This document shows positions 17,920 through 45,433 of a stretch of DNA of 45,996 nt, piece by piece. Position numbers and translations under genes: made by a program. Source of the DNA: Alphaproteobacteria bacterium (GTDB lineage: Bacteria; Pseudomonadota; Alphaproteobacteria; Rhizobiales; Xanthobacteraceae); the NCBI GenBank assembly GCA_016869215.1, contig VGEP01000035.1, positions 1 to 45,996 of the forward strand, written 5' to 3'. Every line of letters begins with the position of its first letter. The first letter of the stretch is position 1. The notes beneath the pieces are model-generated. The model had not been told where the DNA came from, did no database searches, and worked only from the letters and a program-made list of their open reading frames with translations.

Positions 17920-17950
17920 TCAGTACAAAAATTGACCGAAATTACCTCCA

Positions 17951-19386: not shown

Positions 19387-19411
19387 CAAGAAACCAGAGG
19401 AGGTACGTTCC

Positions 19412-28643: not shown

Positions 28644-29648
28644 CTATTCGGCCGGTGTGGCCCGCGGCGTGGCTCCGGACGGAGCCTTGCCCTTTTCCTC
28701 TTCGAGCCATAGCGGGTGATGCTGCTTGGCCCAGTTCTCGTCGACGGTGCCGGTCCCCATCGCCTCGAACGCGCCTTCCATCCCCATCGTGCCGATGTAG
28801 ATGTGCGCCAGCATGGCGGCGACGAACAGCAGGGCCACGATGCCATGGACGACCTGGGCGAGCTGCATTCCCGCCATGGTCGTTCCGTAGAACGGGAACA
28901 TCAGCATGTAGCCCGTCACCGACACCGCGGTGCCGCCGATGATGACGATCCAGTAGATCATCTTCTGGCCGGCGTTGAAGCGGTAGGCCGGCGGGTGGTC
29001 CTTGCCGAACAGGCCGCCGCCGCGCCTGATCCAATTGATGTCGGTGCGGTTCGGAATGTTGCCCGCGATCCAGATCAGGAAGATCAGCACCACGCCGATG
29101 GCGAACGGGAAGCTCAGATAGTTGTGGGCGTACTTGCCCCACAGCGACCACGCCGTGAACGCCTCCGGGCCGATCAGCGGCAGCAGCAGCTGCTTGCCGA
29201 AGGTGATGTTGAGCCCGGTGATGCCGAGGATGATGAAGCAGGTCGCCGTCACCCAGTGCACAAAGCGCTCGAACGAGTTGAAGCGCACGACGGTGCGGCC
29301 CGACCGGCCGCTCTCGATCTTCACCATGCCGCGCGAGAGATAGAACACCAGCAGCAGGACGATCATGCCGAGGATGGCGATGGCGCCGATCCAGGGCAGC
29401 GTGACCTGGTGGAACTGCCGCCAATTCTGGCCCGCGGGCTGGATCAGGGTCGAGGCCTGCGCGTCGGGAATGCTGATGCGGCCCTGAACCTGCTGAAGCT
29501 GCTGCAGCAGCTGTTCTTCCTTCACGGCGCTGGCGGTCGGATTGACCGACGTCGCCTGTTGCGCGGCGGCCGGCGCCGCGACGGCAACGATGAACGCGAG
29601 CGCAAGCGCCCCGACGATGTAGCGAGCCTGAGCGAGCAACTTGGTCAT
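28644..29648 (-). CDS. fdhC: formate dehydrogenase gamma subunit (cytochrome b556)
   Basis: Encodes 334 aa from ATG 29648 with GGGAGGG upstream (the 29681 start lacks one). A signal-like first helix (YIVGALALAFIVAVAAPAAAQQ) is followed by a periplasmic stretch and four membrane helices of the FdnI/FdhC type. Heme-b histidines are in FERFVHWVTATCF, YAHNYLSF and VVHGIVALLFVAAMLAHIYIG. It takes electrons from FdhB and passes them to quinone. A short charged C-terminal tail ends the protein. Confidence 0.92.
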   Translation of the reverse strand: MTKLLAQARYIVGALALAFIVAVAAPAAAQQATSVNPTASAVKEEQLLQQLQQVQGRISIPDAQASTLIQPAGQNWRQFHQVTLPWIGAIAILGMIVLLLVFYLSRGMVKIESGRSGRTVVRFNSFERFVHWVTATCFIILGITGLNITFGKQLLLPLIGPEAFTAWSLWGKYAHNYLSFPFAIGVVLIFLIWIAGNIPNRTDINWIRRGGGLFGKDHPPAYRFNAGQKMIYWIVIIGGTAVSVTGYMLMFPFYGTTMAGMQLAQVVHGIVALLFVAAMLAHIYIGTMGMEGAFEAMGTGTVDENWAKQHHPLWLEEEKGKAPSGATPRATPAE

Positions 29649-29732: not shown

Positions 29733-30329
29733 TCAGGTCGCGATGGTCTCTTTGTAGGCGGTCTTCCAGCCCCAGGCGCCGGAGCCGTAGCCGCGCTTCA
29801 CCACGCGTTCCTTGTAGATCTGGGCGATGATCTCGCCGTCGCCGGCAAGCAGCGACTTGGTCGAGCACATCTCCGCGCACAACGGCAGCTTGCCCTCGGC
29901 CAGACGGTTGCTGCCGTACTTGTCGTACTCGGCCTTGGTGATGTCGGCCTCCGGGCCGCCGGCGCAGAAGGTGCACTTGTCCATCTTGCCGCGCGAGCCG
30001 AAGTTTCCGACCCGCGGGTACTGCGGCGCGCCGAATGGGCAGGCGTAGAAGCAGTATCCGCAGCCGATGCACAGGTCCTTGGAGTGCAGCACCACGGCGT
30101 CCGCCGTGGTGTAGAAGCAGCTCACCGGACACACCGCCGCGCACGGCGCGTCGGTGCAGTGCATGCAGGCCATGGAGATCGACCGTTCGCCCGGCTTGCC
30201 GTCGTTGATGGTGACGACGCGCCGGCGGTTGATGCCCCACGGTACCTCATGCTCGTTCTTGCAGGCGGTGACGCAGGCGTTGCACTCGATGCAACGATCG
30301 GCGTCGCAGAGGAATTTCATACGTGCCAT
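29733..30329 (-). CDS. fdhB: formate dehydrogenase beta (4Fe-4S) subunit
   Basis: Encodes 198 aa. Four ferredoxin-type clusters are marked by CDADRCIECNACVTACK, CMHCTDAPCAAVCPVSC, CIGCGYCFYACPFGAPQYP and CTFC...CAEMC. Length fits the Fdh3 subgroup. It links the catalytic subunit to the cytochrome b subunit. Starts 12 bases after fdhA ends. Confidence 0.94.
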   Translation of the reverse strand: MARMKFLCDADRCIECNACVTACKNEHEVPWGINRRRVVTINDGKPGERSISMACMHCTDAPCAAVCPVSCFYTTADAVVLHSKDLCIGCGYCFYACPFGAPQYPRVGNFGSRGKMDKCTFCAGGPEADITKAEYDKYGSNRLAEGKLPLCAEMCSTKSLLAGDGEIIAQIYKERVVKRGYGSGAWGWKTAYKETIAT

Positions 30330-30341
30330 GGTCGTTGCTCC

Positions 30342-33281
30342 TTATGCCGCTCTGACCTGACAGAGGGTGGCCTTGGGTTCTTGCATGCCCGTGGCCGGGT
30401 CGAACCCGTAGGTGGTGATCGTGTTCACGCTCTCGCCGAGCACGATCGGGTCGGCGCCGCTCGGGTACTTGCTGCGCTGATCCGTGTTCATGAACCAGCC
30501 GGCGAAGTGGAAGGGCATCCAGGTGACGCCCCGGCCGACGCGTTCGGTGACCAGCGCCTTGACGCGGCAGGCCTTGCCGGACGGCATTTCCGGACCGGTC
30601 ACGAGACACCACGCGCCGTCCTTGATACCGCGGGCTGCGGCATCCGCCGGGTTAATCTCGATGAACGAGTCCTGCTGCAGCTCGGCGAGCCACTTGTTGG
30701 AGCGGGTTTCCTCGCCGCCGCCCTCGTACTCGACCAGACGGCCCGAGGTGCAGATCAGCGGGAAGTTCTTGGCGATGCCCTTCTCGACCGCCGCCTTCTG
30801 GACGTCGAAGCCGATATCCGGCACGCGGAACCGCCGCGCGTTGGCGTAGGTCGGGTACTTCCCGACCAGCTCCGGCCGCGGCGTGTAGATCGGCTCACGG
30901 TGGATCGGCACCGGGTCCGGCAGGTTCCAGGCGACCGCCCGGGCCTTGCCGTTGCCGTAGTGGATCGTGCCGTGCTCCATGCAGACGCGCTGGATGCCGC
31001 CGGACAGGTCGATCGCCCATCCCACGCTGTCGGGGTTGTTGCCGCCGATGCGGTTGATGGTGGCGAGCTCGGTCTCGGTCAGGTCCTTGTCCCAGCCGAG
31101 TTTCTTCAGCACCCCGTAAGTGAACTCGGGATAGCCGTCCTTAAGCTCCGAGCCCAGCGAGTAGGAGCCGTCCGCCAGCAGGCTGACCTTGCGGGTCGTG
31201 CCGTCCGCCAGCTTCTCCTCGCGCTCCAGACCGAAGCGGGCACGGAACGTGCCGCCGCCGTCCTTGACGTGCAGGTGTGTGTTGTAGAGCTGGTGCGTAC
31301 CGGGGTGCCGAATTTGCGGCGTGCCCCAGCACGGCCAAGGCAGGCCGTAGTAGTCGCCGCCGACCTCCGGCACGTCCTTGGCGGCGCGCAGCGACACCAG
31401 GTCGAACTTGCCCTGGTTGCGCATATGCGCCTTCAGGCGTTCCGGCGACTGGCCGCAGTAACCGGTCGAGAAGCCGCCGCGGTTGATCTCGCGGAGGATG
31501 TCCTCGGCCAGCACGGCGCCGTTCTCGACCTTGATGTTCTTGAACATCCGGTCGGCGAAGCCGAGCTTGCGGGCCAGCATGTACATCACGTCGTAGTCGT
31601 TCTTCGATTCGAAGATCGGCTTGACGATCTGTTCGCCCCACTGCAGCGAGCGGTTGGACGCCGTGCGCGAGCCGTTGCACTCGAACTGCGTGCAGATCGG
31701 CAGCAGGTAAGTGTCGTTCTTGCGCTCGGAGAGGACGGCCCAAGTGGTCGGATGCGGGTCGGCGACGACCAGCAGTTCGAGCTTCTCGATGCCTTCGGCC
31801 GCCTTTGGCATCCGGGTCACGGTGTTGCCGCCGTGGCCGAACACCATCATCGCCTTGACGTTGTCCTGCTGGGTGACCTGATCCTTCGGCAGCGTGGTCG
31901 CGTCGAACCAGCGGGTCGACGGGATGCCGGTCGTCTCCATCATCTTCGGATCGGCGAAGCGCGCCCGCACCCAGTCGTACTCAACCTCCCAGACCCGGCA
32001 CCAGTGCCGCCACGCGCCGGCCGCGAGGCCGTAGTAGAGCGGCAGCGTGCCGATATCGAGGCCGAGGTCGGTCGCGCCCTGCACGTTGCAGTGGCCGCGG
32101 AAGATGTTGGCGCCCACGCCCGAGCCGCCGACGTTGCCGGTGGCGAGCAGCAGGTCGCAGAACGCCCGCACGTTCGCCGTCGATACCGTGTGCTGGGTTG
32201 CGCCCATGCACCAGATGAAGGTCGAGGGCCTCTCGGTCGCAAACATCTTGGCGACGCGCTCAAGCTGCGCGCCGGGAACGCCGGACACGCGCTCCACTTC
32301 CTCGGGAGTCCACTTCTCGACCTCCCTGCGGACCTGGTCCATGCCGTAGACGCGCTGCTGGATGAAGACCTTGTCCTCCCAGCCGTTCTTGAAGATGTGA
32401 TACATCATGCCCCAGATCACCGGGATGTCGGTGCCGGAGCGGAAGCGCACGTATTCGGTGGCGTGCGCCGCGGTCCGCGTCATGCGCGGATCCATGACGA
32501 TCATGTTGGCGCGGTTGAGTTCCTTGCCTTCCAGCACGTGCTGCAGCGACACCGGATGCGCTTCGGCCGCGTTCGATCCCATGAAGATGATCGTCTTGGC
32601 CTTGCGGATGTCGTTGTAGCTGTTGGTCTGCGCGCCGTAGCCCCAGGTGTTGGCGACGCCGGTCACCGTGGTCGAGTGGCAGATACGCGCCTGGTGGTCG
32701 ACGTTGTTGGTGCCCCAGAAGGCCGCGAACTTGCGATACAGATACGCGCCCTCGTTGGAGAACTTCGCCGAGCCGAGCCAGTACACCGAGTCCGGGCCGG
32801 ACTTGGCGCGGATCGCCGTCATCTTGTCGCCGATCTCGTTGATCGCCTGGTCCCAGGAGATGCGGGTCCATTGCCCGTTGACCATCTTCATCGGGTACTT
32901 CAGGCGCCGGTCGCCATGCACCAGCTCGCGCACCGCCGCGCCCTTGGCGCAATGCGATCCGCGGTTGATCGGCGAATCCCAGCCCGGCTCCTGGCCGATC
33001 CACACGTCGTTGGCGACTTCCGCCACCACCGTGCAGCCGACGGAGCAGTGCGTGCAGATGTTCTTGCGGATGGTCACCTGCTGGCCGGCGGGCGGCGGGC
33101 CGCCGGCCTCGGCCTTGCGGACGCTGCCGATCGACAGCGTGCCGAGCGCGGCGAGGCCGCCTGCGGCAAGGCCGGAGCGGCGCAGGAATGCGCGGCGGTC
33201 GAGCGCGCCTTGCGCGTGACTGGCGAGCGCCGCTGCTAGTGCGCCACGGCGGGCCTGACGTTCGGTTCTCTTGATCAGCAC
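30342..33281 (-). CDS. fdhA: formate dehydrogenase alpha (Mo/W-bis-MGD) subunit
   Basis: Encodes 979 aa in one unbroken frame. The Tat signal DRRAFLRRSGLAAGG (Arg29-Arg30) exports the folded enzyme. A 4Fe-4S site is Cys76, Cys79, Cys83 and Cys111; the active-site residue is Cys201 (ARICHSTT), followed by the essential His202, so this is a cysteine, not a selenocysteine, enzyme. It oxidises formate to CO2 in the periplasm, holding Mo or W by two MGD. The C-terminal dinucleotide-binding domain (EINPADAAARGIKDGAWCLV) is present. Nearby import and cofactor genes serve this protein. Confidence 0.95.
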   Translation of the reverse strand: MLIKRTERQARRGALAAALASHAQGALDRRAFLRRSGLAAGGLAALGTLSIGSVRKAEAGGPPPAGQQVTIRKNICTHCSVGCTVVAEVANDVWIGQEPGWDSPINRGSHCAKGAAVRELVHGDRRLKYPMKMVNGQWTRISWDQAINEIGDKMTAIRAKSGPDSVYWLGSAKFSNEGAYLYRKFAAFWGTNNVDHQARICHSTTVTGVANTWGYGAQTNSYNDIRKAKTIIFMGSNAAEAHPVSLQHVLEGKELNRANMIVMDPRMTRTAAHATEYVRFRSGTDIPVIWGMMYHIFKNGWEDKVFIQQRVYGMDQVRREVEKWTPEEVERVSGVPGAQLERVAKMFATERPSTFIWCMGATQHTVSTANVRAFCDLLLATGNVGGSGVGANIFRGHCNVQGATDLGLDIGTLPLYYGLAAGAWRHWCRVWEVEYDWVRARFADPKMMETTGIPSTRWFDATTLPKDQVTQQDNVKAMMVFGHGGNTVTRMPKAAEGIEKLELLVVADPHPTTWAVLSERKNDTYLLPICTQFECNGSRTASNRSLQWGEQIVKPIFESKNDYDVMYMLARKLGFADRMFKNIKVENGAVLAEDILREINRGGFSTGYCGQSPERLKAHMRNQGKFDLVSLRAAKDVPEVGGDYYGLPWPCWGTPQIRHPGTHQLYNTHLHVKDGGGTFRARFGLEREEKLADGTTRKVSLLADGSYSLGSELKDGYPEFTYGVLKKLGWDKDLTETELATINRIGGNNPDSVGWAIDLSGGIQRVCMEHGTIHYGNGKARAVAWNLPDPVPIHREPIYTPRPELVGKYPTYANARRFRVPDIGFDVQKAAVEKGIAKNFPLICTSGRLVEYEGGGEETRSNKWLAELQQDSFIEINPADAAARGIKDGAWCLVTGPEMPSGKACRVKALVTERVGRGVTWMPFHFAGWFMNTDQRSKYPSGADPIVLGESVNTITTYGFDPATGMQEPKATLCQVRAA

Positions 33282-33291
33282 GGGCGCCTCC

Positions 33292-33498
33292 TCAGCTCGG
33301 ATACCGGTTCACGCGATAGAACGTCTTCACGTGATCGGTTTCCTTGTATCGGGCTTTCTTCTTTTGGCTGTCGCTCTCGGAGTCGGCCTTGGCCGCGGTC
33401 GCGAGCGGAGTAGCGGTCGCAGCCGCAACGCCCGCACCGGCTCCGAGCACGCGAAGGAAGTCGCGACGGCCGACCTTCGTTCTGTCTCGTTCCTTCAT
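33292..33498 (-). CDS. formate dehydrogenase region TAT-signal protein
   Basis: Encodes 68 aa: a twin-arginine signal (VGRRDFLRVLGAGAGVAAAT) with a short mature tail (KKKARYKETDHVKTFYRVNRYPS). It is the small TAT target found just before fdhA in many Fdh3 operons. Its role is unknown; proposed to help export or assembly of the alpha subunit. It ends ten bases before fdhA begins. Confidence 0.9.
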   Translation of the reverse strand: MKERDRTKVGRRDFLRVLGAGAGVAAATATPLATAAKADSESDSQKKKARYKETDHVKTFYRVNRYPS

Positions 33499-33543
33499 CG
33501 CATTCCCTCCTTGTATTCGAGTGATTCTTGATTTGCGGCCGTC

Positions 33544-34323
33544 CTACGACGGCAGCGCGAACGCTTCACTCTCGATGTCCACGAACACGCGGCCGAACGT
33601 ACCCACATGACGATAGAGCCTGGCCGTTTCGGCGCGCTCGAGATCGGCGAAGAAGCGGCCGATCCAGGGCGCGAGATGCTTCTCGAAAATCCTCTGGTCG
33701 CTGCCGTCCGGCGCGGGCAGGCGGCCGCTCACGAGACCCGACATGACCTCGCACATTGTGGCGGCGTGGTCCTCCGGCTCGGCGTTGCCTTCGACGCGCT
33801 CGATGCCGAGTTCGGCGAGGTCCGCGCGCAGCCGCGCCAGCGGGCGCTCGTGCAGCATCCCGGTGAGGTAATAGGAGCCGTAAGGCAGCAGCTCGCCGCG
33901 CCCCAGCCCGATGAAGAGGTCGAAATACTCGCGCTCGACGCTTTCGACCGCGGCCTCGCTCGCGGCCTGGCCGAGCGCGGCATGCGCGACACCGAGCGGT
34001 GTCGAGTCGCCGCGCAGTCGGCCGACGTTTGCAAGCAGCCGCGCGTCCGGCGCGCGCGCCAGCAGCGTGGCGAGCAGCGCGTATTCCTGCGCGCGCGCCT
34101 CGGCGATGTCGTCGGGTGTCGGCATATTGTCGGTGTTGGAGTAGAGGTCGGGACGCAGAACCTTTCGGTCCACGCCGGTCGCTGCCTCAATCGTGAGCAC
34201 GCGTTCGGCGGGTATGCGCGTCCAATTCGAAACCGATGGCTGTGAAATTCCGATTTGACGCGCGAGTTCGCTTACGCCGCCCGCGGCGCGTATGGCCTCG
34301 TTCAGGCCCTCGTCACGCATCAA
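33544..34323 (-). CDS. HTH-TorD fusion chaperone for FDH
   Basis: Encodes 259 aa. Residues ~1-62 are a Cro/YdaS-like helix-turn-helix (GLNEAIRAAGGVSELARQIGISQPSVSNWTRIPAERVLTIEAATGV). Residues ~66-250 are a TorD-type chaperone (EYALLATLLARAPDARLL, EYFDLFIGLGRGELLPYGSYYLTG, EDHAATMCEVMSGLV, FEKHLAPWIGRFF). TorD proteins guard the Tat peptide of molybdoenzymes until the cofactor is loaded. The DNA-binding domain suggests that it also senses free apo-enzyme and regulates its own operon. The fusion is one unbroken frame. Confidence 0.87.
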   Translation of the reverse strand: MMRDEGLNEAIRAAGGVSELARQIGISQPSVSNWTRIPAERVLTIEAATGVDRKVLRPDLYSNTDNMPTPDDIAEARAQEYALLATLLARAPDARLLANVGRLRGDSTPLGVAHAALGQAASEAAVESVEREYFDLFIGLGRGELLPYGSYYLTGMLHERPLARLRADLAELGIERVEGNAEPEDHAATMCEVMSGLVSGRLPAPDGSDQRIFEKHLAPWIGRFFADLERAETARLYRHVGTFGRVFVDIESEAFALPS

Positions 34324-34422
34324 AACCTCATTGGAATAAGAGCAATGTAAAGCTACCAGCGTACCGGATTGCGGGTCAATAGCTGGAGGCTATGGCGGTC
34401 GCGATTGGCTATGGAGAAGCGA

Positions 34423-35169
34423 TCACGCTTTCGGCAGCGCGCCGCCGTGTCGGGGACGGCTCCTGGCACGATCCGAATCTCCCGGCTTGGCGTCGTGCTG
34501 CACTGCATTATTCTCGTTGCGCTGCACAATAGCGGCTTCGTTCGCTAGCGCTTCTGCAGGCGCGGGCGGTTCCTGCGGCGTTGCACCGGGTATTTCGGCG
34601 GTGGAACCCGGCAGTGCGGCCGCTTTGCCGCCCGATTGTGCCGTTGCGCCGTCCGCCGGTTCGGTTTCGCGTGCCGCAGTGCGCTGGTCGTCAGGCTTTT
34701 CGCGCTCGCTGAACACCTCGGCCAGCAGCTTCTTGACGTCGTCGCTCGCGCGCAGCGGCTCGAAACCGAACATGCTGTCGGGCGCATTGAAGTCCCAGGA
34801 GTACTCGGACAACCCGATGTATTCGCGAATCGCGGGATCGGCGGACCAGGCGCGGCGAAGGGCCGCACGCGTCAGATGTTGCGGCACGCCGGGCGCGAGA
34901 AACGCGCGGACGTCGGTTCCGGCCGTGATCGACTCGATCGACGGCAGGCTTGCGATGTCGAACGCCGGCGCCGGTTCTTGGGCCGGCACTTTCGCCACTC
35001 CATCCGCGCCGCTCGGCGGCTTCGCCGCATCGGTGGAAGATCGCGCATTATTTTCGCCTTCGGTGCCGGGCGCGGGATTCGCAGGCGGTTTCGTGTCGTC
35101 CTTCGGTTCCTGTCGCGCATTCTGCTTGCGCCGCGACCAGCGTCCCAGGAAGTTTTCGGAGCCGCTCAT
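34423..35169 (-). CDS. DUF3306 protein
   Basis: Encodes 248 aa in an ATGA overlap with the DUF3305 gene. The N-terminus (MSGSENFLGRWSRRKQNA) and the central FDIASLPSIESITAGTDVRAFLAPGVPQHLTRAALRRAWSADPAIREYIGLSEYSWDFNAPDSMFGF are DUF3306 landmarks. Both flanks are low-complexity, rich in Pro, Ala, Glu and Asp, and probably disordered. Function unknown; family members are constantly linked with Fdh3-type formate dehydrogenase. Confidence 0.9.
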   Translation of the reverse strand: MSGSENFLGRWSRRKQNARQEPKDDTKPPANPAPGTEGENNARSSTDAAKPPSGADGVAKVPAQEPAPAFDIASLPSIESITAGTDVRAFLAPGVPQHLTRAALRRAWSADPAIREYIGLSEYSWDFNAPDSMFGFEPLRASDDVKKLLAEVFSEREKPDDQRTAARETEPADGATAQSGGKAAALPGSTAEIPGATPQEPPAPAEALANEAAIVQRNENNAVQHDAKPGDSDRARSRPRHGGALPKA

Positions 35170-35684
35170 TGCTCGTCCCCCCGCGTTCCCGGAGGACGGT
35201 GCCCGAGCGCTTCGGTGTTGGCGCGGTCGCGCTTGCGTTTGACGAACACGCGCTCGACGTGGTGCTCGGCGACGAACGCCTCGACCTCGTCGCGGATCGG
35301 CTCGGGCATCGGCACCGACTCGACGATGTCGTTGCCTGACTCGGTCAGGCCCTCGCCCTCGGCCGGGTCGGCGGTCACGAGATAGACGTCGTAGGGCGGT
35401 TCCAGGCCGGTTTCGCGCAGCACCACCCACAGCGACGGATTTTCGCTCGCGAGATTGTCGCGATAGTTGGTGGTCTCCGACACGTAGAGATCGACCTGCG
35501 CCGTGCCGGCATAGAACGTCGTACGGCCGTGAGAGTCTTCGCCGAGCTTGGTCCACGGCGGCGTCTCCGGTGCGCCCGCGAGCACGGACACCGGCTTCCA
35601 GAGGTAGTCCACCCACTGGCTCTCGGCCTTGATGCGCTCGACGACGACGCCGACCGCGATGCTCGCAAGCGGAGGCGCGGTCAT
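35166..35684 (-). CDS. DUF3305 protein
   Basis: Encodes 172 aa. IAVGVVVERIKAESQWVDYLWKPVSVLAG..PPWT and TTFYAGTAQVDLYVSETTNYRDNLASENPSLWVVLRETG are the DUF3305 core. No signal, membrane helix or metal motif is seen; soluble and cytoplasmic. It overlaps DUF6352 and DUF3306 genes by four bases each, implying tightly matched synthesis and perhaps a complex. Confidence 0.9.
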   Translation of the reverse strand: MTAPPLASIAVGVVVERIKAESQWVDYLWKPVSVLAGAPETPPWTKLGEDSHGRTTFYAGTAQVDLYVSETTNYRDNLASENPSLWVVLRETGLEPPYDVYLVTADPAEGEGLTESGNDIVESVPMPEPIRDEVEAFVAEHHVERVFVKRKRDRANTEALGHRPPGTRGDEQ

Positions 35685-36700
35685 GTCGCGTGCTCCAGAT
35701 GCCGGACCGGCAATCCCGCGATCAGGTTCTGCGGCTTCATTCGCAGCATCTTGTCGCGATCCATCGCCATGATCAGGTAGATCGGCTCGTCTTGCACCTT
35801 GGGCAAGGCCACCGCGGGATCGCGGAACTTCAGCCGGAACAGCCCGACCACCCGTCCGCGCGTGGCGTCGTCGATCTCCTCGCCATTCCAGAGCGCGTCG
35901 CCGATTTGCGTGCCGTCCGCATCGAGGCCGACGTACCAGGTGAGCGTCGCGTCCTGCACCTCGGTGAACGGTTCGATCTCGACCTCGATCGAAAGCAGAT
36001 GCTCGATCCAGCGCGCGATCGCCGCCGCCAGCGCGTCGAGCCCGCGCCGGCCCGCGGTCAGGTCGAGCGCGACATGGAATTGGTCACTGTGCTCGAAATA
36101 ATGCCCGGCGTTGTCGTCGTTCATCACGTCGATCTCGGCTTCGGGCGGAATGCCGAGCATCGACACCAGCGGCGACACCGGCGCGCCGGTGTTGCCGGAA
36201 ATGGTCTCCTCGTCGGCCGCGATCAGCGAGCCTTCGTGCATGGTCATGCGCTGCGTCCGGAAGAACAGTTCCGCCGCGCGCAGCACATAGGGGTCGGCGC
36301 AGGTGTCGAGCGCGTTGCGCAGGATCACGTGCACGAGTTGGTTGATGAACAGGTGGGGAATCTTCGTCCCGCTGCGGACCACGTGCAGGTAGGCCGCCTC
36401 AACGGTGCGATGCCGGGTCAGCAGATCGCGGAACGCCAGCATGACCTGCCAGTTCTCGCGCGCGTCGGCATCGGCAATGGAAGCGATCTCGGCAGCGGCG
36501 ACGGCGCGGCGCGGATCGTCGAGCAGGGCCGCGTGCAGCGCGCGTTCGGCGGTGCAGGCTTCGGGCGGCGGCGCAAGCTCCGGCCGCGCCAGATAGGCTT
36601 TCAAGAATTCGTCGGTCACGACCAGGCCGCCGCCTTCGTCGCGGTCGAGCAGGTGATGTCCGCAGGACACCCAGAAGTCTTTGGCCGTGGCCGTTTCCAT
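35681..36700 (-). CDS. DUF6352 family protein
   Basis: Encodes 339 aa. Features seen are an N-terminal FWVSCGHHLLDRDEGGGLVVTDEFLKAYLARPE with paired histidines, a helical middle (YLHVVRSGTKIPHLFINQLVHVILRNALD) and a long C-terminal part ending FRDPAVALPKVQDEPIYLIMAMDRDKMLRMKP. I recognise it as the DUF6352 family of FDH clusters; function unknown. The HLLDRDEGG region and several His residues might bind a cofactor or metal. Confidence 0.85.
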   Translation of the reverse strand: METATAKDFWVSCGHHLLDRDEGGGLVVTDEFLKAYLARPELAPPPEACTAERALHAALLDDPRRAVAAAEIASIADADARENWQVMLAFRDLLTRHRTVEAAYLHVVRSGTKIPHLFINQLVHVILRNALDTCADPYVLRAAELFFRTQRMTMHEGSLIAADEETISGNTGAPVSPLVSMLGIPPEAEIDVMNDDNAGHYFEHSDQFHVALDLTAGRRGLDALAAAIARWIEHLLSIEVEIEPFTEVQDATLTWYVGLDADGTQIGDALWNGEEIDDATRGRVVGLFRLKFRDPAVALPKVQDEPIYLIMAMDRDKMLRMKPQNLIAGLPVRHLEHAT

Positions 36701-36736
36701 ATCCCGTGCGCTTTGTCTTGGTTTGGCGGCACTATA

Positions 36737-37279
36737 TCACGGCGTGCCGCGCTCCTTCACCGCCAGCGCCTTCAGGTCGACCCGTTCGCCCGGCTCCTCG
36801 TCGCCTTCCACGTCGAAGAAGGAGAACGCGCGCAGCGGCTTCGGCCCGTCCTTGGGGCGCAGGGTGCGGAACGCTTCGCGGATTTCGCCGCCATCGTGCG
36901 TGCGGTGCAGCGCGATTAGCGTGTCGAGCGGATGGTTGCAGAGCGAGGCGGCGAACGCGAACTCCTCATTTGCCGCTGCTTCGGCGTCAGCCATGCTTGG
37001 TGCGCCGAACCTGTCGCTGAGCTGTTGTGCAAGTGCCTTTACCGCGCTGTCACGGTCCTCATCGCTCGCCTCGACGATCTGCACCAGTGTCGACCAGCCG
37101 AGCGATTGCACACCGAGGAAGCCCGCGCGAAACGCCGCGCGCGCCTTGCCTTCCAGCGCGTCCGGATCGCGCTCGGCGAACATGAACGCGCCCGGCACCG
37201 CCCATTCGCCGGGCTCGGCCGCGTTCGGGAACACGAACGTGTCCGACGGATCGAGCCGGATGGTGCGCAGGAGTTTCAA
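36737..37279 (-). CDS. DUF6505 family protein
   Basis: Encodes 180 aa: MKLLRTIRLDPSDTFVFPNAAEPGEWAVPGAFMF and RAAFRAGFLGVQSLGWSTLVQIVEAS are the distinctive parts. Cytoplasmic, no clear cofactor motif. The ATG overlaps the ligase-like gene's stop. Belongs to the same FDH-linked block; function unknown. Confidence 0.85.
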   Translation of the reverse strand: MKLLRTIRLDPSDTFVFPNAAEPGEWAVPGAFMFAERDPDALEGKARAAFRAGFLGVQSLGWSTLVQIVEASDEDRDSAVKALAQQLSDRFGAPSMADAEAAANEEFAFAASLCNHPLDTLIALHRTHDGGEIREAFRTLRPKDGPKPLRAFSFFDVEGDEEPGERVDLKALAVKERGTP

Positions 37280-38025
37280 CGCGGCCCCCGCGTTTGCGGA
37301 TCGAGCCAGGACGGCTTTGCCAGCGCCGGGATCAGCTTGCGCCGTTCGGTGTCGGTCTTGCCCATGCGCCGCACCAGCAGGTCACCGCTCTCGTCGATGT
37401 CGCGGCGCATGCCTTTTTCCGGCGTGAGCTGCGGCAGATAGTGCCTTGCGACCGCGCCGAAGCCGAACTCCTGCCAGGCATCGACATGCACCATCAGATG
37501 GCGCGCGAAACTTTCCACCAGCCGGCCGGACGTGGCGTCGTCGAAGCCTTCGTCCTCCAGCGCCGCGGTCAGCGGATTCAGGCCGGGCTCGCCTCCGGTC
37601 ATCGACACGGTTCGCACCATGCCGCCGAACACCATCCACGCGGGCGGCTCGTCCTCGGGGCCTTGCGGCCAGGCGAACTGCCCACCGCCGACCAGGCCCA
37701 TGTCGATCCGGATCGCGTCCGGCCAGTCGACCGCGACTGGCTTCTCCGGCGGCGCATGGGCGGCCAGCGCATCGAGCAGCGCCGACATGCCGGCGTAAAA
37801 CGCGCGGCGCGCCGTGCGCAGCGGCTCGTCGGGCTCCAGCACCACGGCGAACTCGGCAAGATCGAACCGGCCCACATGAACCAGCGTGCCCGCGCCAAGC
37901 TCCGCCGCGTTGGCGCAGGCATGGGCAAACGCGTCGCCCACCTCGCGCAGCGTCACCAACCGATAGCCCGGCGGCAGGTCGAGCGCGCCGGCAATCGACG
38001 ATTTCATGCGGGTTTCGGTCGGCAT
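37276..38025 (-). CDS. biotin/lipoate-ligase-like protein of FDH cluster
   Basis: Encodes 249 aa. The fold pattern of biotin/lipoate protein ligases is visible (PPGYRLVTLREVGDAFAHACANAAELGAGTLVHVGR, then DWPDAIRIDMGLVGGGQFAWPQG, matching the WPND...GG region of ligases). The RxGR adenylate loop is not seen and the catalytic lysine of the KxGG motif reads LVGG, so classical ligation may be lost. It heads the leftward block to DUF3306. A TATAAT string on the minus strand at 38064-38059 is about 34 bases ahead of the ATG. Confidence 0.8.
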   Translation of the reverse strand: MPTETRMKSSIAGALDLPPGYRLVTLREVGDAFAHACANAAELGAGTLVHVGRFDLAEFAVVLEPDEPLRTARRAFYAGMSALLDALAAHAPPEKPVAVDWPDAIRIDMGLVGGGQFAWPQGPEDEPPAWMVFGGMVRTVSMTGGEPGLNPLTAALEDEGFDDATSGRLVESFARHLMVHVDAWQEFGFGAVARHYLPQLTPEKGMRRDIDESGDLLVRRMGKTDTERRKLIPALAKPSWLDPQTRGPR

Positions 38026-38058
38026 CGGGTCCCGGATTGGCGAATTCGACTTAGCCTA

Positions 38059-38064
38059 ATTATA
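38059..38064 (-). promoter_or_regulatory. -10 box of the ligase/DUF operon
   Basis: The minus strand reads TATAAT at 38064-38059 in an AT-rich island (TTAGCCTAATTATAACCTAG) between divergent operons, 34 bases from the ATG at 38025. No good -35 is visible at the normal distance, so an activator or alternative sigma factor is possible. Confidence 0.4.
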
Positions 38065-38124
38065 ACCTAGCGGGCACGGCGGCCAGCGCGATGGGGCAAG
38101 GCGAGCCGCGATGCCGGAGCCGGA

Positions 38125-40149
38125 ATGGCCGACAAGCGCACCATCCTGGTGTGTTCCTGCGAAGACACCATGCCGCTCGACGAGGGCGCGCTCCGGCGCG
38201 GCTGCCGCGGCGCGGATATCGAGACCGCCCGTCAATTGTGCCGGGCGGAGATCGAGCGGTTCCGCGCGTTTGCGGCGTCGGGCGATCCGCTGACGGTGGG
38301 CTGCACGCAGGAAGCGCCGCTGTTTTCGGAGGTTGCGGGCGAGCAGGCGGCGATTGCCTTCGCCAATGTGCGCGAGACCGCCGGCTGGTCGGCGGACGCC
38401 AAGAGCGCCGGCCCGAAGATGGCGGCGCTGCTGGCTGCTGCGGCCGAGCCGATGCCCGACGTTCCGTTCGTCGGTCTCGCGAGCGAAGGCGTGACGTTGA
38501 TCTACGGCCGCGACGATAGCGCGATCGAGGCGGCAAGATTGCTCGCCGATCGTCTCGACGTCACGGTGATGGTCGCGCAACCGAAGGGGCTTGCGCCGCC
38601 GAGGACGACCGAGTTCCCGGTGGTGCAGGGCACGATCCGCAGCGCGAAGGGCCATCTCGGCGCGTTCGAACTGACCGTCGACAATTTCGCGCAGCCCGAT
38701 CCGTCGTCGCGCGGCGAGCTGACGTTCAGCGCCGGACGCGACGGCGCGGTGTCGCAGTGCGACGTCGTGCTCGATCTGTCCGGCGGCGCGCCGCTGTTTC
38801 CCGCGCACGATTTGCGCGACGGCTATCTGCGCGCCGACCCGGCCGATCCGGCGGCGGTGCTGCGCGCGGTGCTGAAGGCGCGCGATCTCACCGGCACCTT
38901 CGACAAGCCGCGTTATGTGACGTTTACCGAGGACCTGTGCGCGCATTCGCGCTCCAGGATCGTCGGTTGCCGCCGCTGCCTCGATCTGTGCCCGACCGGC
39001 GCGATTACGCCTGCGGGCGACCATGTCGCAATCGATCCGCAAGTTTGCGCTGGCTGCGGGCAATGCGCCGCCGCGTGCCCGACCGGCGCCGCGGCCTACG
39101 CGTTGCCGCCGGCCGACGCGCTGATGCGGAAATTGCGCGTGATGCTGTCTGCTTATCGTGAGGCAGGCGGTGCGTATCCCATCGCGCTGCTGCACGACGA
39201 AGCGCACGGCGCGCCGTTAATCGACGCGCTGGCGCGGCATGGCGACGGCCTGCCGGCGAACGTGCTGCCGCTTGCGGTCAACGAGGTGACGCAGGTCGGG
39301 CTGGAGACGGTCGCGGCCGCATTCGCCTACGGCGCCAGCGCGCTGCGGTTCCTGCTGCGCGCCCGCGCACGGCACGACGTTGCAGGCCTGCACAAGACGA
39401 TCGCGCTGGCCGAACCGATATTGCAGGGGCTTGGCTTCGGGCCGGGCCGTGTTGCCGCGATTGAGACCGACGATCCCGACGCGCTCGGCGAGGGGCTGCG
39501 CGCCGTCGAGAAGGCCGAACCCGCGCCGCGGCCGGCGACGTTCTCGGCGGTCGGCGCCAAGCGCGACGTGATGCGGCTCAGCCTGCGCGAACTGCAGCGC
39601 GCGTCGCCCGCGCCGGTCGATATCGTGGCGCTGCCGGAAGGCGCGCCGTTCGGCACGGTCGAGGTCAACGTCGCGGGCTGCACGCTGTGCCTGGCCTGCG
39701 TCGGTGCCTGTCCCACCGGCGCGCTGTCGGCCGATTCCGAGCGGCCGATGCTGCGCTTTGCCGAGGACGCCTGCGTGCAGTGCGGGCTTTGCAAGGCGAC
39801 CTGCCCGGAGAAGGTCATCACGCTCAGGCCGCAGATCGACTTCCGCGCCGCGACGGCGGCTCCGCGCACGCTCAAGGAGGAGGAGCCGTTCCCCTGCGTG
39901 CGCTGCGGCAAGCCGTTCGGCGTCAGGAGCACCATCGAGCGCGTCGCGGCCAAGCTCGAAGGCAAGCACTGGATGTTCAAGGGTTCGGCGAAGCGCCTCG
40001 AAGTCATCAAGATGTGCGAGGACTGCCGCGTCACGGTGATGTCCGAAGAGGACTTCGACCCCTACGGCGCGCCGCCGCGGCCCGCGCCGCGCACCACCGA
40101 GGACTACCTGCGTGAGCGCGAAGAGAAGGCGCGCGAGGGCGAGAGCTGA
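38125..40149 (+). CDS. polyferredoxin-type 4Fe-4S protein
   Basis: Encodes 674 aa from ATG 38125 (ATG 38111 is out of frame). Cysteine clusters of ferredoxin type are CRRCLDLCPTGAI and CAGCGQCAAACPTGA around residues 285-320, and CTLCLACVGACPTGA and CVQCGLCKATCPEK near 520-570. A C-terminal zinc-ribbon-like pair CVRC...CEDC follows. The N-terminal 250 residues, with CSCEDTMPL and an Asp-rich middle, resemble the heterodisulfide-reductase/HdrA-like electron carriers. No signal or membrane helix: a cytoplasmic electron hub. Divergent from the DUF block; its link to FDH is contextual. Confidence 0.88.
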   Translation: MADKRTILVCSCEDTMPLDEGALRRGCRGADIETARQLCRAEIERFRAFAASGDPLTVGCTQEAPLFSEVAGEQAAIAFANVRETAGWSADAKSAGPKMAALLAAAAEPMPDVPFVGLASEGVTLIYGRDDSAIEAARLLADRLDVTVMVAQPKGLAPPRTTEFPVVQGTIRSAKGHLGAFELTVDNFAQPDPSSRGELTFSAGRDGAVSQCDVVLDLSGGAPLFPAHDLRDGYLRADPADPAAVLRAVLKARDLTGTFDKPRYVTFTEDLCAHSRSRIVGCRRCLDLCPTGAITPAGDHVAIDPQVCAGCGQCAAACPTGAAAYALPPADALMRKLRVMLSAYREAGGAYPIALLHDEAHGAPLIDALARHGDGLPANVLPLAVNEVTQVGLETVAAAFAYGASALRFLLRARARHDVAGLHKTIALAEPILQGLGFGPGRVAAIETDDPDALGEGLRAVEKAEPAPRPATFSAVGAKRDVMRLSLRELQRASPAPVDIVALPEGAPFGTVEVNVAGCTLCLACVGACPTGALSADSERPMLRFAEDACVQCGLCKATCPEKVITLRPQIDFRAATAAPRTLKEEEPFPCVRCGKPFGVRSTIERVAAKLEGKHWMFKGSAKRLEVIKMCEDCRVTVMSEEDFDPYGAPPRPAPRTTEDYLREREEKAREGES

Positions 40150-40155
40150 GCCAAA

Positions 40156-40761
40156 CTACGCGGCCCGATGCATCAGCACGCTGCCGCCCTCGTGCGGCAA
40201 CCGCGGATGCGGCGCGATATGGGCAACGCCGATCTCGGCGTAACCCCGCGCCCGGTAGAATTTCATCGCCGGCCGATTGTCCGCCCAGACGTGCAGGCTC
40301 AGGCGGTTGAAGCCTGCGCTCTTCGCGCGGTCCTGCGCCCAGCGCAGCAGCACGTCGCCGACGCCGCGCCCGCGGCATCGTTCGTCGACGGCAAGCGCAT
40401 TGAGGAACAAGCTGCCCCAGTCCTGCAACTCCATGATCGGCTGGATGTGCGCGTAACGCTCGGAGGCGAGGAGGTGATGGTCCTCGCCCTTGAGCAAGTC
40501 GGCGGGAAAGACGTTGGCCATGCCTATCACGTCGCCGCCGTCGCCTTCGGTCGCGACGCGGCAGTGGCGGTGGGAGATCGGATAGGAGTCGCCGCCAATC
40601 CCCACCGACAGAAAATCCTTCGCCGACACGAACGGGATCAGGTCGTCGAACAGGAACTCGTAAAGCCCGCCGCCGGCGACGCACATCAGTCGGGCAATGT
40701 CGCGGCTGTCCTCCGCGCGCGCGTCGCGGTAGGCGACTGTGCCGGGCGCGGACCCGGTCAT
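40156..40761 (-). CDS. GNAT-family N-acetyltransferase
   Basis: Encodes 201 aa. The acetyl-CoA site VDERCRGRGVGDVLLRWAQDRAK and SLHVWADNRPAMKFYRARGYAEIGV are typical GNAT motifs A and B. Longer than the minimal family, with an N-terminal segment (ARLMCVAGGGLYEFLFDDLIPF). Substrate unknown. The start overlaps the stop of the WD40-cytochrome gene (ATGA), so it is translated from the same leftward transcript. Confidence 0.87.
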   Translation of the reverse strand: MTGSAPGTVAYRDARAEDSRDIARLMCVAGGGLYEFLFDDLIPFVSAKDFLSVGIGGDSYPISHRHCRVATEGDGGDVIGMANVFPADLLKGEDHHLLASERYAHIQPIMELQDWGSLFLNALAVDERCRGRGVGDVLLRWAQDRAKSAGFNRLSLHVWADNRPAMKFYRARGYAEIGVAHIAPHPRLPHEGGSVLMHRAA

Positions 40762-42038
40762 TTCGACCTGGCCGTCGCCCTGGCCAGAAATTTCACCAGC
40801 GCCTCACGGTCGGCCGCCGAGCCGATCTTCTGCTCCGGCATCTTGGTCCCGGGCGTGTAGGCCATCGGGCCGACCTCGAACAGCTTTGCCACCGTCTCAG
40901 GCGTCCAGACGATGTCGAGCTTCTTCAACGCCGGCGAGAAGTCGTAGCCCGGCAGCGTCGCGATCTTGCGGCCGAAAATGCCGGCCAGCGTCGGCCCTGC
41001 GCGGTTGCCCTCGTCCGGCGTCAGCGTGTGGCAGGCGATGCAGGCGCGGTAAACTTCGGCGCCGCGGTCGCCGGCAAAGGGCGCGAGCGGATCGTCGGCG
41101 TCGGCCATCGCGACCGAGCCGATGTGGTCGCCGGTGATCGCGTTCCAGCGCCGCACCATGCGGTCGGTGCCGCCGGTCAGCAGCGTGCGGCTGTCGGGAA
41201 AGAATGCCGCCGACCAGACCGGCAGGCCGGGGCCGACCAGCGTGCGTGCGAGCGTGCGCGTGCGCCGCTCGAAGATCGCGACCGAGCCGCGGATGCCGGC
41301 GGCTGCAACCAGTGCGCCGTCGCGCGATGCGGCGATGGCAATGATCGGCGTGCCGGAGGTCTCGGCTTCGGCGCGAAGCTCGCCGGACGGCGAGAGAAAG
41401 AACACGCGCCCGTCCGCGCCGCCCGCGACGATCTCGCCGTCGGGCGCGACCGCGACCGCGTTCAGCGGCGTCGGCAGCGTAACGACCGCCGCCGAGCCGC
41501 TGCGGAGCGGCCAGATGCGCACGGTGAGGTCGTAGGCCGCGCTCACCAGCGCCCTGCCGTCGGGCGTAAACGCCACGCCGTTGACGTTTTGTTGATGGCC
41601 TTCGAGCGTCTGCGGCGCGCCGCCCGCGAGAGGCCAGAGCTTGACGGTGCGGTCCCAGGACGCGGATGCAATCGTGTTGCCGTCGGGCGACACCGCGAGG
41701 GCTGCGATAGGCGCGGTGTGGCCCTCCAGCACGCGCTCGGGCGCGGCGGCGCCCGGCTGCCAGATTGCGATGCGGCCGTCCTCGCCGCCGGTGACGATGC
41801 GGCTTCCGGCTGCGAAGACGACCGCGTTCACCGCGCTGTCGTGATGGCGCAGCACCTGCTCGGCGGCGTTGCGGGTCAGCGACCAGCGGATCGCCGACGA
41901 GTCGAAGCTGCCGGAGATCGCGGTCCTGCCGTCCGGGGCGATGGCGAGCGCGCGCACCGGTCCACCGTGACCGCGCAATTGCGCCAGCGCCGCGGACGCG
42001 GACAGCAGAACAAGGAGTGCGAGTGCGATCCTAGTCAT
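40758..42038 (-). CDS. WD40-cytochrome c fusion protein
   Basis: Encodes 426 aa with a signal peptide (MTRIALALLVLLSASAALAQ). Residues ~22-310 form a seven-blade propeller: LRGHGGPVRALAIAPDGRTAISGSFD, LEGHTAPIAALAVSPDGNTIASASWDRTVKLW and so on. Residues ~320-426 are a class I cytochrome c: heme motif CIACH (333-337) and Met ligand in TKMPE (Met400). Periplasmic electron carrier with a built-in docking platform. It follows the MoeA-PBP gene with an 8-base overlap. A link to FDH electron flow is inferred. Confidence 0.9.
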   Translation of the reverse strand: MTRIALALLVLLSASAALAQLRGHGGPVRALAIAPDGRTAISGSFDSSAIRWSLTRNAAEQVLRHHDSAVNAVVFAAGSRIVTGGEDGRIAIWQPGAAAPERVLEGHTAPIAALAVSPDGNTIASASWDRTVKLWPLAGGAPQTLEGHQQNVNGVAFTPDGRALVSAAYDLTVRIWPLRSGSAAVVTLPTPLNAVAVAPDGEIVAGGADGRVFFLSPSGELRAEAETSGTPIIAIAASRDGALVAAAGIRGSVAIFERRTRTLARTLVGPGLPVWSAAFFPDSRTLLTGGTDRMVRRWNAITGDHIGSVAMADADDPLAPFAGDRGAEVYRACIACHTLTPDEGNRAGPTLAGIFGRKIATLPGYDFSPALKKLDIVWTPETVAKLFEVGPMAYTPGTKMPEQKIGSAADREALVKFLARATARSK

Positions 42039-44025
42039 CGGCCGGCTGCATCCCTAACGCACGGATGCGCTCCCTGGTTCGCGGGTCGCGCAGCGCTTCG
42101 AGGAAGGCGCGCACGGCGGGCCTGTCGCTGCGGCTGTCCACCACCAGAAAATCGTACTCCTCCGGCGACAACGGCACGAATCCAAGACCGTACATATTTG
42201 CGACCGGCTCGATCGCCACGCCCCAGTCGGCGCGCGCTTGCGCGACTGCCGCCGCCACCGCGTTGTGCGAGCGCGGCTGGTTGGCGTAGCCCGGCGGACG
42301 CGCGCCCGCGAGCAGCTTGTCGATCAGAATGCGGGTGCCCGCGCCGGCGTTGCGGTTGACCATCAGGCACGACGGATCGGCGAGCGCGGCCTTGATCGCG
42401 TCGTCGGCGCTCTTGCCGTCGAAGCGCGCGTCGCCGGGGCGGAACAGCACGCCCTGCATGCGTTTCCAGCCCTTCACCAACGACAGGCCGGGCGCAAGCA
42501 GGTGCTTGTTGTAGATGCCGGTTTCAGCGTCGACGAGATGCACCGGCGCGACGTCGCATTGCCCGCGCTGCGCCGCGAGTGCGCCGCCCTGGCTGCCGAC
42601 CGCGACGGTGCGCACGCTGAAGCCGCGCTCGGCGAGCGCGCCCACCACTGCGTCAAGCGCGATGTCGTGGCTGCCGACGATGGTCACGTCGGGCGCACGC
42701 GCGGCGTCGCCGATCAGCGTCACGCGCGCGGCGCTGTCCGCGTCGAGCGCGGACGCCAGCGCATCGATCTCGATGAAACCGTCGGCCTGGGAAAAGCTCG
42801 TCACCGCGCCCGAGCCCTTGGTGGTCGGCAGCGCCGCAAATCCGCTGCCGTCCGGCACCAGCGACACCAGCACGAATTCCTTGCGGCCCATTTCCGACGC
42901 GATCCGCAGCGGCACGCGCGCTTCGACCGCGCGCGCGGCCTCCGGCGGGAGGCCTGCGCGGGCGCGAATGACGGGCGCGACGAAGGCGTGGAAGGTGAAG
43001 ATCGCCGAGGTCGGAAAGCCCGGCAGCACGACGACCGGTTTTCCGCCCGCGACCGCGAGGCACAAGGGCTTGCCGGGCTTGAGCGCCACGCCATGCACCA
43101 GGATGCCAGGCTTGCCGAGCTTGGAAGCCACTTGATGGGAAAGGTCTCCTGCGCCCTTCGACGTGCCGCCCGACAGGACGACCATGTCGCATTCGGCGAG
43201 CGCGCGGCGCACGGCGGCTTCCAGCGCCACCGGATCGTCGGGAAATGCACCGAACGGGACCGGCTCGCCGCCCGCTTCCGCTACCGCGGCGGCGACGATC
43301 GCGCCGTTGGAATCGTAGACGCCGCCAGGCCGGAGCGTTGCGCCGACCGCCACGATCTCGTCGCCGGTTGACAGCACGGCGACCCTGGGACGGCGCACCG
43401 CGCCCACTTCGGCAAGCCCGCAGGCCGCGAGCATGCCGGTCTCGCGCGATCCGATGCGCTGGCCCTTTCTCAAGAGCGTTTCGCCGCGCGCGATGTCGGA
43501 GCCCGCGTAGGAGATGAACTGCCCCGGGGTCGCGGCGCGGCGCAGTTCGATGGCCGGTCCGCTTTCGATCAGTTCGGTCTGCTCGATCATCACCACGGCG
43601 TCGGCGCCGCGCGGAACCATGCCGCCGGTGGCGATGGTTGTGGCCGTGCCGGGCCTGACTTCGACCGCCGGGGGATGGCCGCAGGCGATCACCTCGGCGT
43701 TGAGGGCGAAGTGTTTCGGCGCGGCGTCGCTCGCGCCCGCGGTGTCGGCCGAGCGCAGCGCGAAGCCGTCGACATTCGCGCGGTCGAACGGGGGTACGTC
43801 GATCGGCGCGGCCACGTCCTGCGCCAGCACGCGGCCGAGCGCCGCCGCGAGCGGAACGCGCTCCGCAGCCAGCGGCGATAGATCGAGATTGTTTTCGAAG
43901 CGGCGGCGGGCGTCCTCGGCGGACACCACTTCGAGAAACTGCTCCTGGCGCGCGGCCTTACGGACCGCTTCGATCAACTCGTTGTCCGCGTCCGGCGTGC
44001 GCGGCTTGCCGGTTCCTCCGCTCAT
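42031..44025 (-). CDS. MoeA fused to PBP-like domain
   Basis: Encodes 664 aa. Residues ~30-430 are MoeA-like: VPLAAALGRVLAQDVAAPIDVPPFDRANVDGFAL, VAVLSTGDEIVAVG, MVVLSGGTSKGAGDLSHQVA, VVLPGFPTSAIFTFHAF. Residues ~445-655 are a PBP-like (ModA/LysR-substrate-type) domain: VTIVGSHDIALDAVVGALAERG, HLVDAETGIYNKHLLAP, LMVNRNAGAGTRILIDKLLAG, VGWAIEPVANMYGLGFVPL-type end. No signal peptide. The binding domain could hand oxyanion to, or sense it for, the MoeA domain. Start in an ATGA overlap with the upstream MoeA-like gene. Confidence 0.9.
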   Translation of the reverse strand: MSGGTGKPRTPDADNELIEAVRKAARQEQFLEVVSAEDARRRFENNLDLSPLAAERVPLAAALGRVLAQDVAAPIDVPPFDRANVDGFALRSADTAGASDAAPKHFALNAEVIACGHPPAVEVRPGTATTIATGGMVPRGADAVVMIEQTELIESGPAIELRRAATPGQFISYAGSDIARGETLLRKGQRIGSRETGMLAACGLAEVGAVRRPRVAVLSTGDEIVAVGATLRPGGVYDSNGAIVAAAVAEAGGEPVPFGAFPDDPVALEAAVRRALAECDMVVLSGGTSKGAGDLSHQVASKLGKPGILVHGVALKPGKPLCLAVAGGKPVVVLPGFPTSAIFTFHAFVAPVIRARAGLPPEAARAVEARVPLRIASEMGRKEFVLVSLVPDGSGFAALPTTKGSGAVTSFSQADGFIEIDALASALDADSAARVTLIGDAARAPDVTIVGSHDIALDAVVGALAERGFSVRTVAVGSQGGALAAQRGQCDVAPVHLVDAETGIYNKHLLAPGLSLVKGWKRMQGVLFRPGDARFDGKSADDAIKAALADPSCLMVNRNAGAGTRILIDKLLAGARPPGYANQPRSHNAVAAAVAQARADWGVAIEPVANMYGLGFVPLSPEEYDFLVVDSRSDRPAVRAFLEALRDPRTRERIRALGMQPADD

Positions 44026-45134: not shown

Positions 45135-45208
45135 CAGAACAACTTGACGCGAAGCAGGCGGGGTGTCCAGTGTCGGCAAAAGGGGTTCACGCAACCGCGA
45201 ACCGATCT

Positions 45209-45433
45209 ATGGCGGAATCGAAGGTCAGCCTGCGCGGGCTGAAATGCCCGTTGCCCGCGCTCAAGACGAAGAAGCTGCTGTCCAGGATGGCGGCCGGCGA
45301 GGTGCTGACGATCGAATGCACCGATCCGCTGACGACCATCGACATTCCGAACCTGCTGCGCGAAACCGGCGACGCGCTGGTGGACAGCGGCAAGAAGGGC
45401 CGCGTGCTGACGTTCCGGATCAGGAAGACTTGA
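45209..45433 (+). CDS. TusA/SirA-like sulfur carrier
   Basis: Encodes 74 aa from ATG 45209 (GTG 45173 would add 12). KVSLRGLKCPLPALKTKKLL has the CPxP motif with the active Cys13, and the rest (VLTIECTDPLTTIDIPNLLRETGDALVDSG) is the beta-alpha-beta of TusA. Such proteins pass persulfide sulfur to partners; here FdhD or molybdopterin enzymes are suitable recipients. Divergent from the MoeA-like gene, 74 bases apart. Confidence 0.9.
   Translation: MAESKVSLRGLKCPLPALKTKKLLSRMAAGEVLTIECTDPLTTIDIPNLLRETGDALVDSGKKGRVLTFRIRKT

Follow-up and report, generated by a model that had tools for sequence, protein, structure and literature searches.

What do five tightly packed genes of largely undescribed function contribute to the formate dehydrogenase whose genes they precede? 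The question is raised by contig C35 of a 5.15-Mb draft alphaproteobacterial genome, analysed here over its whole 45,996-base stretch (the window), in which the five genes lie at 34423–38025, upstream of the genes for a formate dehydrogenase of the FDH3 type that carries a signal for export by the twin-arginine translocation (Tat) pathway. We favour, with moderate confidence, the explanation that the block encodes a dedicated cytosolic helper set for maturation of this enzyme, overseen by a putative repressor in which a helix-turn-helix (HTH) domain is fused to a TorD-type chaperone.

The block reads, on the minus strand throughout, as a biotin/lipoate-ligase-like protein (PF16917, 249 amino acids, 37276–38025, 186.9 bits against a cut-off of 27), a DUF6505 protein (PF20115, 180 amino acids with a TTG start, 36737–37279, 187.2 bits), a DUF6352 protein (PF19879, 339 amino acids, 35681–36700, 212.9 bits), a DUF3305 protein (PF11749, 172 amino acids, 35166–35684, 135 bits) and a DUF3306 protein (PF11748, 248 amino acids, 34423–35169, 94.4 bits). 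All five genes are intact and all five scores are well over the curated Pfam cut-offs, which range from 23.9 to 27 for these families, so that the coordinates, strand and family assignments of a first-pass annotation of this DNA hold. The four-base overlaps that it described occur at three of the four junctions (37276–37279, 35681–35684 and 35166–35169), the exception being a 36-base gap between the DUF6505 and DUF6352 genes. Downstream of the block, after a gap of 102 bases (34321–34422), follow the HTH-TorD gene (P0008, 258 amino acids, 33544–34320), a small Tat-signal protein of fdh regions (33292–33498; TIGR02811, 66.1 bits, cut-off 48.45), fdhA (P0007, 30342–33281), fdhB (29733–30329; NF038355, 337.1 bits, cut-off 240) and fdhC (28644–29648), again on the minus strand. 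FdhA is a catalytic subunit of 979 amino acids (PF00384/PF01568/PF04879) with a Tat-type RRAFLRRS motif, read by eye, near its N-terminus, and FdhC is a cytochrome b561-type gamma subunit (PF01292, 95.5 bits). The enzyme was typed as FDH3 by its beta subunit and by the TIGR02811 companion gene, both of which passed their cut-offs, in agreement with the Fdh3 label it had been given from the letters alone.

The association of the block with FDH3 was measured in two genome samples. In the first, a single set of 150 Pseudomonadota genomes used for all searches, with FdhA called from query P0007 at E values up to 1e-120, FdhA, DUF3305 and DUF3306 were found in the identical 18 genomes, a coincidence with a hypergeometric p of about 1e-23 if genomes are taken as independent, and DUF3305 was found in none of the 132 FdhA-negative genomes. 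All 12 genomes with DUF6505 and all seven with DUF6352 were FdhA-positive; PF16917 is a broad family, present in 94 of the 150 genomes, and the 11 genomes in which it scored above 150 bits were all FdhA-positive. In the second sample, 190 alphaproteobacteria of which a few also belong to the first, the FDH3 beta subunit was present in 27 genomes and DUF3305 in every one of these. DUF3305 occurred in 30 genomes in total, 29 of them with FDH3 genes, including two incomplete assemblies (G211 and G266) in which FdhA lies near DUF3305 on the same contig and is cut by a contig end. DUF6352 was found in 26 of the 190 genomes, 23 with the FDH3 beta subunit, the same two incomplete assemblies with FdhA, and one with neither, and it was missing from four FDH3 genomes (G067, G083, G215 and G236). 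DUF6505 was matched in 20 genomes at an E value of 0.001, 19 of them over the cut-off, of which 17 have the beta subunit, G266 has FdhA and one has neither.

These results, which agree across two samples of different taxonomic depth, bear out the claim that the block travels with formate dehydrogenase and do not sustain its treatment as a single unit. They show that FDH3 is almost invariably accompanied by DUF3305 and DUF3306 and that the ligase-like protein, DUF6505 and DUF6352 are optional add-ons, all three of which are missing from one FDH3 genome (G111). Two genomes, G296 and G320, carry two FDH3 beta genes and a single DUF3305 match each, so one DUF3305 protein may serve two enzymes.

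For gene order, 565 DUF6352 relatives were confirmed on genome contigs and the best 80 of them surveyed, a choice that leans to close relatives. Fifty-three of the 80 loci extend for 7.5 kb or more to either side of DUF6352 (well-flanked loci). Every one of these has FdhA, FdhB, FdhC, TorD, a multi-[4Fe-4S] protein, DUF3305 and DUF3306; 51 also have DUF6505, 49 the ligase-like gene and 46 a WD40-cytochrome c protein. Over all 80 loci, many of them on short contigs, 79 have DUF3305 and 70 have FdhA; the sole locus without DUF3305 (L141) has a MobB match, and a MobA-like gene, recognized by eye, adjoins its DUF6352 gene. Among named genomes, the eight closest DUF6352 relatives are 64–74% identical, six of them in metagenome-assembled genomes of Pseudolabrys or Pseudorhodoplanes, and the whole block is also found in three Methylorubrum loci (L165–L167) from species other than M. 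extorquens. Linkage is not universal, as the stretches read of five genomes (G016, G019, G194, G267 and G296) place DUF6352 at a distance from fdh, and DUF6505 is likewise unlinked in two of them (G016 and G296). Since all five genomes are nevertheless FDH3-positive, the link to FDH3 is not one of adjacency alone, and the two genes are shown to have sometimes moved away from fdh while being almost confined to FDH3 genomes. The idea that the neighbours were simply inherited together with no shared function, which could also yield the co-occurrence given that the genes are mostly adjacent in the mapped loci, is very improbable in the face of this unlinked tracking and of the agreement between the two samples.

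Other genes adjoin the ligase-like gene in some relatives. A Mrp/NUBPL-type Fe-S carrier nucleoside triphosphatase stands next to it in three loci from genomes without DUF6352 (L109:12944–14008, L112:5121–6185 and L117:4988–6064), called from PF10609 at 330.9 bits in L109, from 63% identity to the L109 protein over 299 residues in L117, and by eye in L112. A 428-amino-acid open frame lies between the ligase-like gene and DUF6505 at L103:6626–7912, and a gap of similar size separates the same two genes in L099 (Methylobacterium bullatum).

The block proteins themselves were examined for location and catalytic potential. No strongly hydrophobic segment was detected in any of the five window products, with peak hydropathy in a 19-residue window, a crude test, no higher than 1.21, as against 2.67 for FdhC, and on this basis all five products look cytosolic. 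Among homologues, a mark of 1.6 was reached by one of 94 DUF3305 and none of 89 DUF3306 proteins. The suggestion that the block might either mature or dock the enzyme is thereby narrowed: membrane docking is disfavoured, because the window products lack a hydrophobic segment and FdhA carries a Tat signal, and maturation is the likelier role. DUF3306 is fast-evolving, with 74 of 89 homologues retained at a 75% identity limit. AlphaFold2 models of DUF3305 (mean predicted local distance difference test score, pLDDT, 94.3; predicted template modelling score, pTM, 0.82) and DUF6352 (pLDDT 90.5) gave no clear match among the structure chains compared. The ligase-like protein fits the PF16917 fold family by score, and a sequence relative in the PDB is 3bfm (E = 2.8e-14), a biotin protein ligase-like entry to which its depositors assigned no function. 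Biotin-ligase WP and glycine positions are retained in the family, whereas both enzyme motifs are missing. The G(R/K)GRxGR loop and a lysine carry the chemistry of biotin ligases; 83 of 84 FDH-linked rows (the window included, and rows of 200 amino acids or fewer and the L108 BirA excluded) have a gap in place of the loop, and the BirA catalytic lysine is found in none of the 84, with leucine in 54 and arginine in 23. Both features are present in 19 of 19 BirA-type controls, which were picked by a [KRQ]WPND motif, a choice that fixes this motif and leaves the loop and the second lysine free. The ligase-like protein is thus a probable non-catalytic pseudo-ligase.

The gene next downstream proved to be more than a chaperone gene. 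In P0008, a Cro/YdaS-type HTH domain comes first (PF15943, 60.3 bits, cut-off 30; P22_Cro, 32.8 bits, cut-off 30.2) and a NarJ/TorD-family domain second (PF02613, 100.9 bits, cut-off 22.2), and an alignment profile of the protein matched a TorD structure (PDB 1n1c, 1e-16) and a Cro structure (PDB 3bd1, 7.4e-6), one with each half. The TorD/DmsD chaperones (PDB 1n1c, 3u41) and the Cro protein matched in this way are separate proteins, whereas the two domains form a single chain in 52 of 93 torD genes (that of the window and 92 others drawn from 104 loci, with HTH class assigned by a profile built from eight HTH-positive rows) and are unfused in the other 41, among them the torD gene of Methylorubrum locus L165.

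A conserved candidate operator accompanies the fusion. All 5-base inverted repeats with spacers of 2–8 bases were counted in the 300 bp upstream of 51 fused torD genes, deduplicated by upstream 8-mers and not by tree, so that the loci remain related. The top dyad, ATAGC-N5-GCTAT, was present in 18 of the 51, as compared with a best count of four for any dyad in 100 shuffled sets; at one mismatch or fewer it was found upstream of 41 of the 51 HTH-positive genes, none of the 41 HTH-negative genes and five of 1020 shuffled sequences. In the 47 sites recovered at two mismatches or fewer, ATAG and CTAT are invariant and the flanks fall to 0.02–0.55 bits, an invariance that is partly due to selection, as the sites were picked by similarity, but all mismatches fall on the two inner positions. 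The reduced motif ATAG-N7-CTAT ranked first among 256 four-base N7 dyads (47 of 51, runner-up 12) and is present in the 300 bp ahead of 47 of 52 fused and none of 41 unfused torD genes. Elsewhere it is rare, with nine other sites in the 52 HTH-positive loci (988,726 bases) and one in the 41 HTH-negative loci (818,354 bases); isolated copies at L155:4678 and L162:4789 lie away from both torD and the ligase-like gene. In the window, the predicted operator, ATAGCTGGAGGCTAT at 34379–34393, is the sole match to ATAG-N7-CTAT and runs into TTGACC on the minus strand, an arrangement shared with eight other loci (12 of 221 loci in total, of which four are the window's own contig). Upstream of the ligase-like gene, an exact copy of the site is present in 3 of 49 HTH-positive and 0 of 29 HTH-negative loci, and the site at one mismatch or fewer in 14 of 49 and 1 of 29, so that the helper block may share this control in some genomes. 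HTH-positive and HTH-negative loci belong largely to different clades, and clade and operator are to that extent partly confounded.

These motifs suggest that the chaperone may act as its own repressor, the TorD half sensing unassembled FdhA or Tat precursor and the Cro-type half, at ATAG-N7-CTAT, controlling how strongly torD-tat-fdhABC and, in certain genomes, the helper block are transcribed; we offer this tentatively, at slightly less than an even chance. A literature search of PMC-licensed papers by title and the start of the abstract found no description of an HTH-TorD fusion among the papers listed, and in the available part of one paper a TorD-family chaperone stands near a separate regulator gene, with no fusion (PMC9734109). 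The HTH-TorD/operator system is the most novel element of the region, one of known parts in a new variant, and it lies just outside the block as first drawn, which ends right before the HTH-TorD gene.

A link to the molybdenum cofactor (Moco) gives the helper set a plausible point of action. NCBIfam NF011058 models a fusion of MobA and DUF3305. The window DUF3305 matches its C-terminal part (positions 213–368, 104.3 bits), and for the window MobA (25124–25747, plus strand, about 10 kb from DUF3305; TIGR02665, 211.4 bits, cut-off 151.85) it is the best NCBIfam family, at 226.2 bits over the MobA part. Both matches are partial and far under the 820-bit cut-off for the fusion, the window genes being separate. 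In genome G264 the order is FdhD, MobA, DUF3305, DUF3306, with the Fe-S protein, and a MobA 54% identical to that of the window adjoins DUF3305. From the two halves of NF011058 and this gene order we infer that DUF3305 acts near the MobA step, in synthesis or transfer of bis-molybdopterin guanine dinucleotide (bis-MGD).

In the explanation that we favour, the helper set would work before FdhA is exported. DUF3305 would act close to the point at which bis-MGD is made or handed over, together with FdhD (24137–25018, plus strand; PF02634, 245.1 bits), MobA, a MobB-like protein and the MoeA proteins encoded in the wider region, the poly-Fe-S protein and TorD; DUF3306 would be a fast-evolving partner in the set, and the pseudo-ligase, DUF6505 and DUF6352 would tune or speed assembly. 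HTH-TorD would bind ATAG-N7-CTAT ahead of its own promoter and repress torD-tat-fdhABC until immature FdhA fills the chaperone half, or the reverse.

Several observations weigh against this explanation. The co-occurrence p-values take no account of relatedness. Wide occurrence of the block genes without fdhA was looked for and not found, with four exceptions: G264, in which, at 98% completeness, the Fe-S protein, DUF3305 and DUF3306 are present and no FDH3-type FdhA was found (best match 33% identity); G156, with DUF6352 and no FdhA; G258, with DUF6505 and no FdhA; and G231, with a sub-cut-off DUF6505 match and no FDH3-type FdhA (best match 31% identical). Conversely, G111 has an FdhA 73% identical to that of the window and keeps the Fe-S protein, DUF3305, DUF3306 and TorD, yet has no ligase-like, DUF6505 or DUF6352 gene, which makes these three helpers and not essentials. 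The 1.6 hydropathy mark is reached by 9 of 89 DUF6352, 6 of 88 DUF6505 and 8 of 85 ligase-like homologues, and the MobA-DUF3305 fusion is known here from the curated model alone, with no actual fused gene seen. On the regulatory side, the HTH is missing from 41 of 93 torD genes and the site from 5 of 52 HTH-positive ones (L179, L185, L187, L191 and L194), which makes this part lineage-bound, and a promoter scan of 33200–38400 found no sigma-70-like site, so that the torD promoter is placed from TTGACC only. In the 1.9-Mb genome G258, the DUF6505 gene (C3:5362–5742) is interrupted by an in-frame TAA and looks like a decaying relic left after loss of the enzyme.

The gene order in G264, with no FDH3 found, and the NF011058 fusion family would also suit a broader role, in which DUF3305 and DUF3306 are MobA partners in bis-MGD synthesis for several enzymes and FDH3 is merely the commonest client; the pair may indeed serve Moco chemistry more widely, as G264 indicates. 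Other bis-MGD enzymes are common to many bacteria, and the lack of DUF3305 from every FdhA-negative genome of the phylum-wide sample makes this broader role unlikely.

It is likewise improbable that the block belongs to a respiratory or cytosolic module that accepts electrons from FDH3 or runs the enzyme in reverse, with the DUF proteins as scaffold. Such a module would be formed with the WD40-cytochrome c protein (40758–42038, minus strand, by family matches) and the divergent multi-[4Fe-4S] protein encoded upstream of the block (38125–40149, plus strand, 674 amino acids, Fer4 families), and the conservation of both in the well-flanked loci, as well as the 26 cysteines of the latter, fits this role. 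The window DUF3305 and DUF3306, on the other hand, contain no cysteines and are probably cytosolic, while FdhA carries a Tat signal, and the linkage to MobA and FdhD points to cofactor work.

Finally, the add-on genes might help to place tungsten instead of molybdenum in FDH3. Genes for a TupB/ATPase/TupA-like oxyanion ATP-binding cassette (ABC) transporter (18020–20251, plus strand) lie within the same 28-kb stretch, and a three-gene ABC transporter adjoins the fdh block of Sinorhizobium. Such a choice of metal is distinctly unlikely, given that no FDH3 genome of either sample lacks DUF3305 and that the transporter matches are under their curated cut-offs (TupA, NF041772, 246.4 bits against 400; TupB, NF041773, 156.3 bits against 320). 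The position of these genes ahead of fdhD suggests a possible tungstate or molybdate supply for FDH3; with an HTH-PBP_like protein gene, they fill 17009–20251. At the other end of the window (42031–45433), a MoeA fused to a PBP-like domain adjoins a second MoeA-like gene, followed on the opposite strand by a TusA-type protein (45209–45433), and two CobW-like P-loop proteins were recognized by eye at 1720–2907 and 4693–5655 from their GFLGAGKTT and GYLGAGKTT motifs.

Parts of this arrangement are already in print, so that the description of the block as undescribed stands for some of its genes only. In the portion of PMC4464133 available, DUF3305 and DUF3306, called putative membrane proteins, are reported in 60% of dmsD-fdhGHI linked operons, and these torD/dmsD-linked operons share with the window the DUF3305/DUF3306 pair, structural genes of fdh, a chaperone of the TorD/DmsD family and a small Tat protein. 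Our results differ from that account in that both DUFs accompany FdhA in 18 of 18 FdhA-positive genomes of the first sample and that the window proteins have no strongly hydrophobic segment; DUF6352, DUF6505, the pseudo-ligase, the HTH fusion and the operator do not figure in that portion. DUF6352 and DUF6505 appeared in no paper found by our search of the PMC-licensed literature. The FDH3 of Methylorubrum extorquens (fdh3ABC, META1_0303) is the same enzyme type by name, and the excerpts available describe no accessory function for these DUFs (PMC12628762, PMC12445348). Similarly, the fdh cluster of Shewanella oneidensis places an Fe-S protein (SO_4506), the chaperone FdhT (SO_4507) and FdhA/FdhB under neighbouring locus tags; this comparison is with published table entries, in which SO_4507 is named merely as a chaperone (PMC5826389).

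FDH3 with this block is found in rhizobia and methylotrophs, and there is demand for molybdenum or tungsten formate dehydrogenases that can reduce CO2. For one such enzyme, M. extorquens FDH1, the part of PMC13396061 available gives alpha-subunit maturation as the bottleneck in a foreign host, and the DUF3305/DUF3306 pair with its optional helpers provides a concrete list of factors that could be missing from a host meant to make FDH3. The HTH-TorD protein and its defined candidate operator make it testable whether a molybdoenzyme chaperone reports the state of assembly to a promoter; if it does, a single protein would tie transcription of a metalloenzyme directly to its assembly and export backlog.

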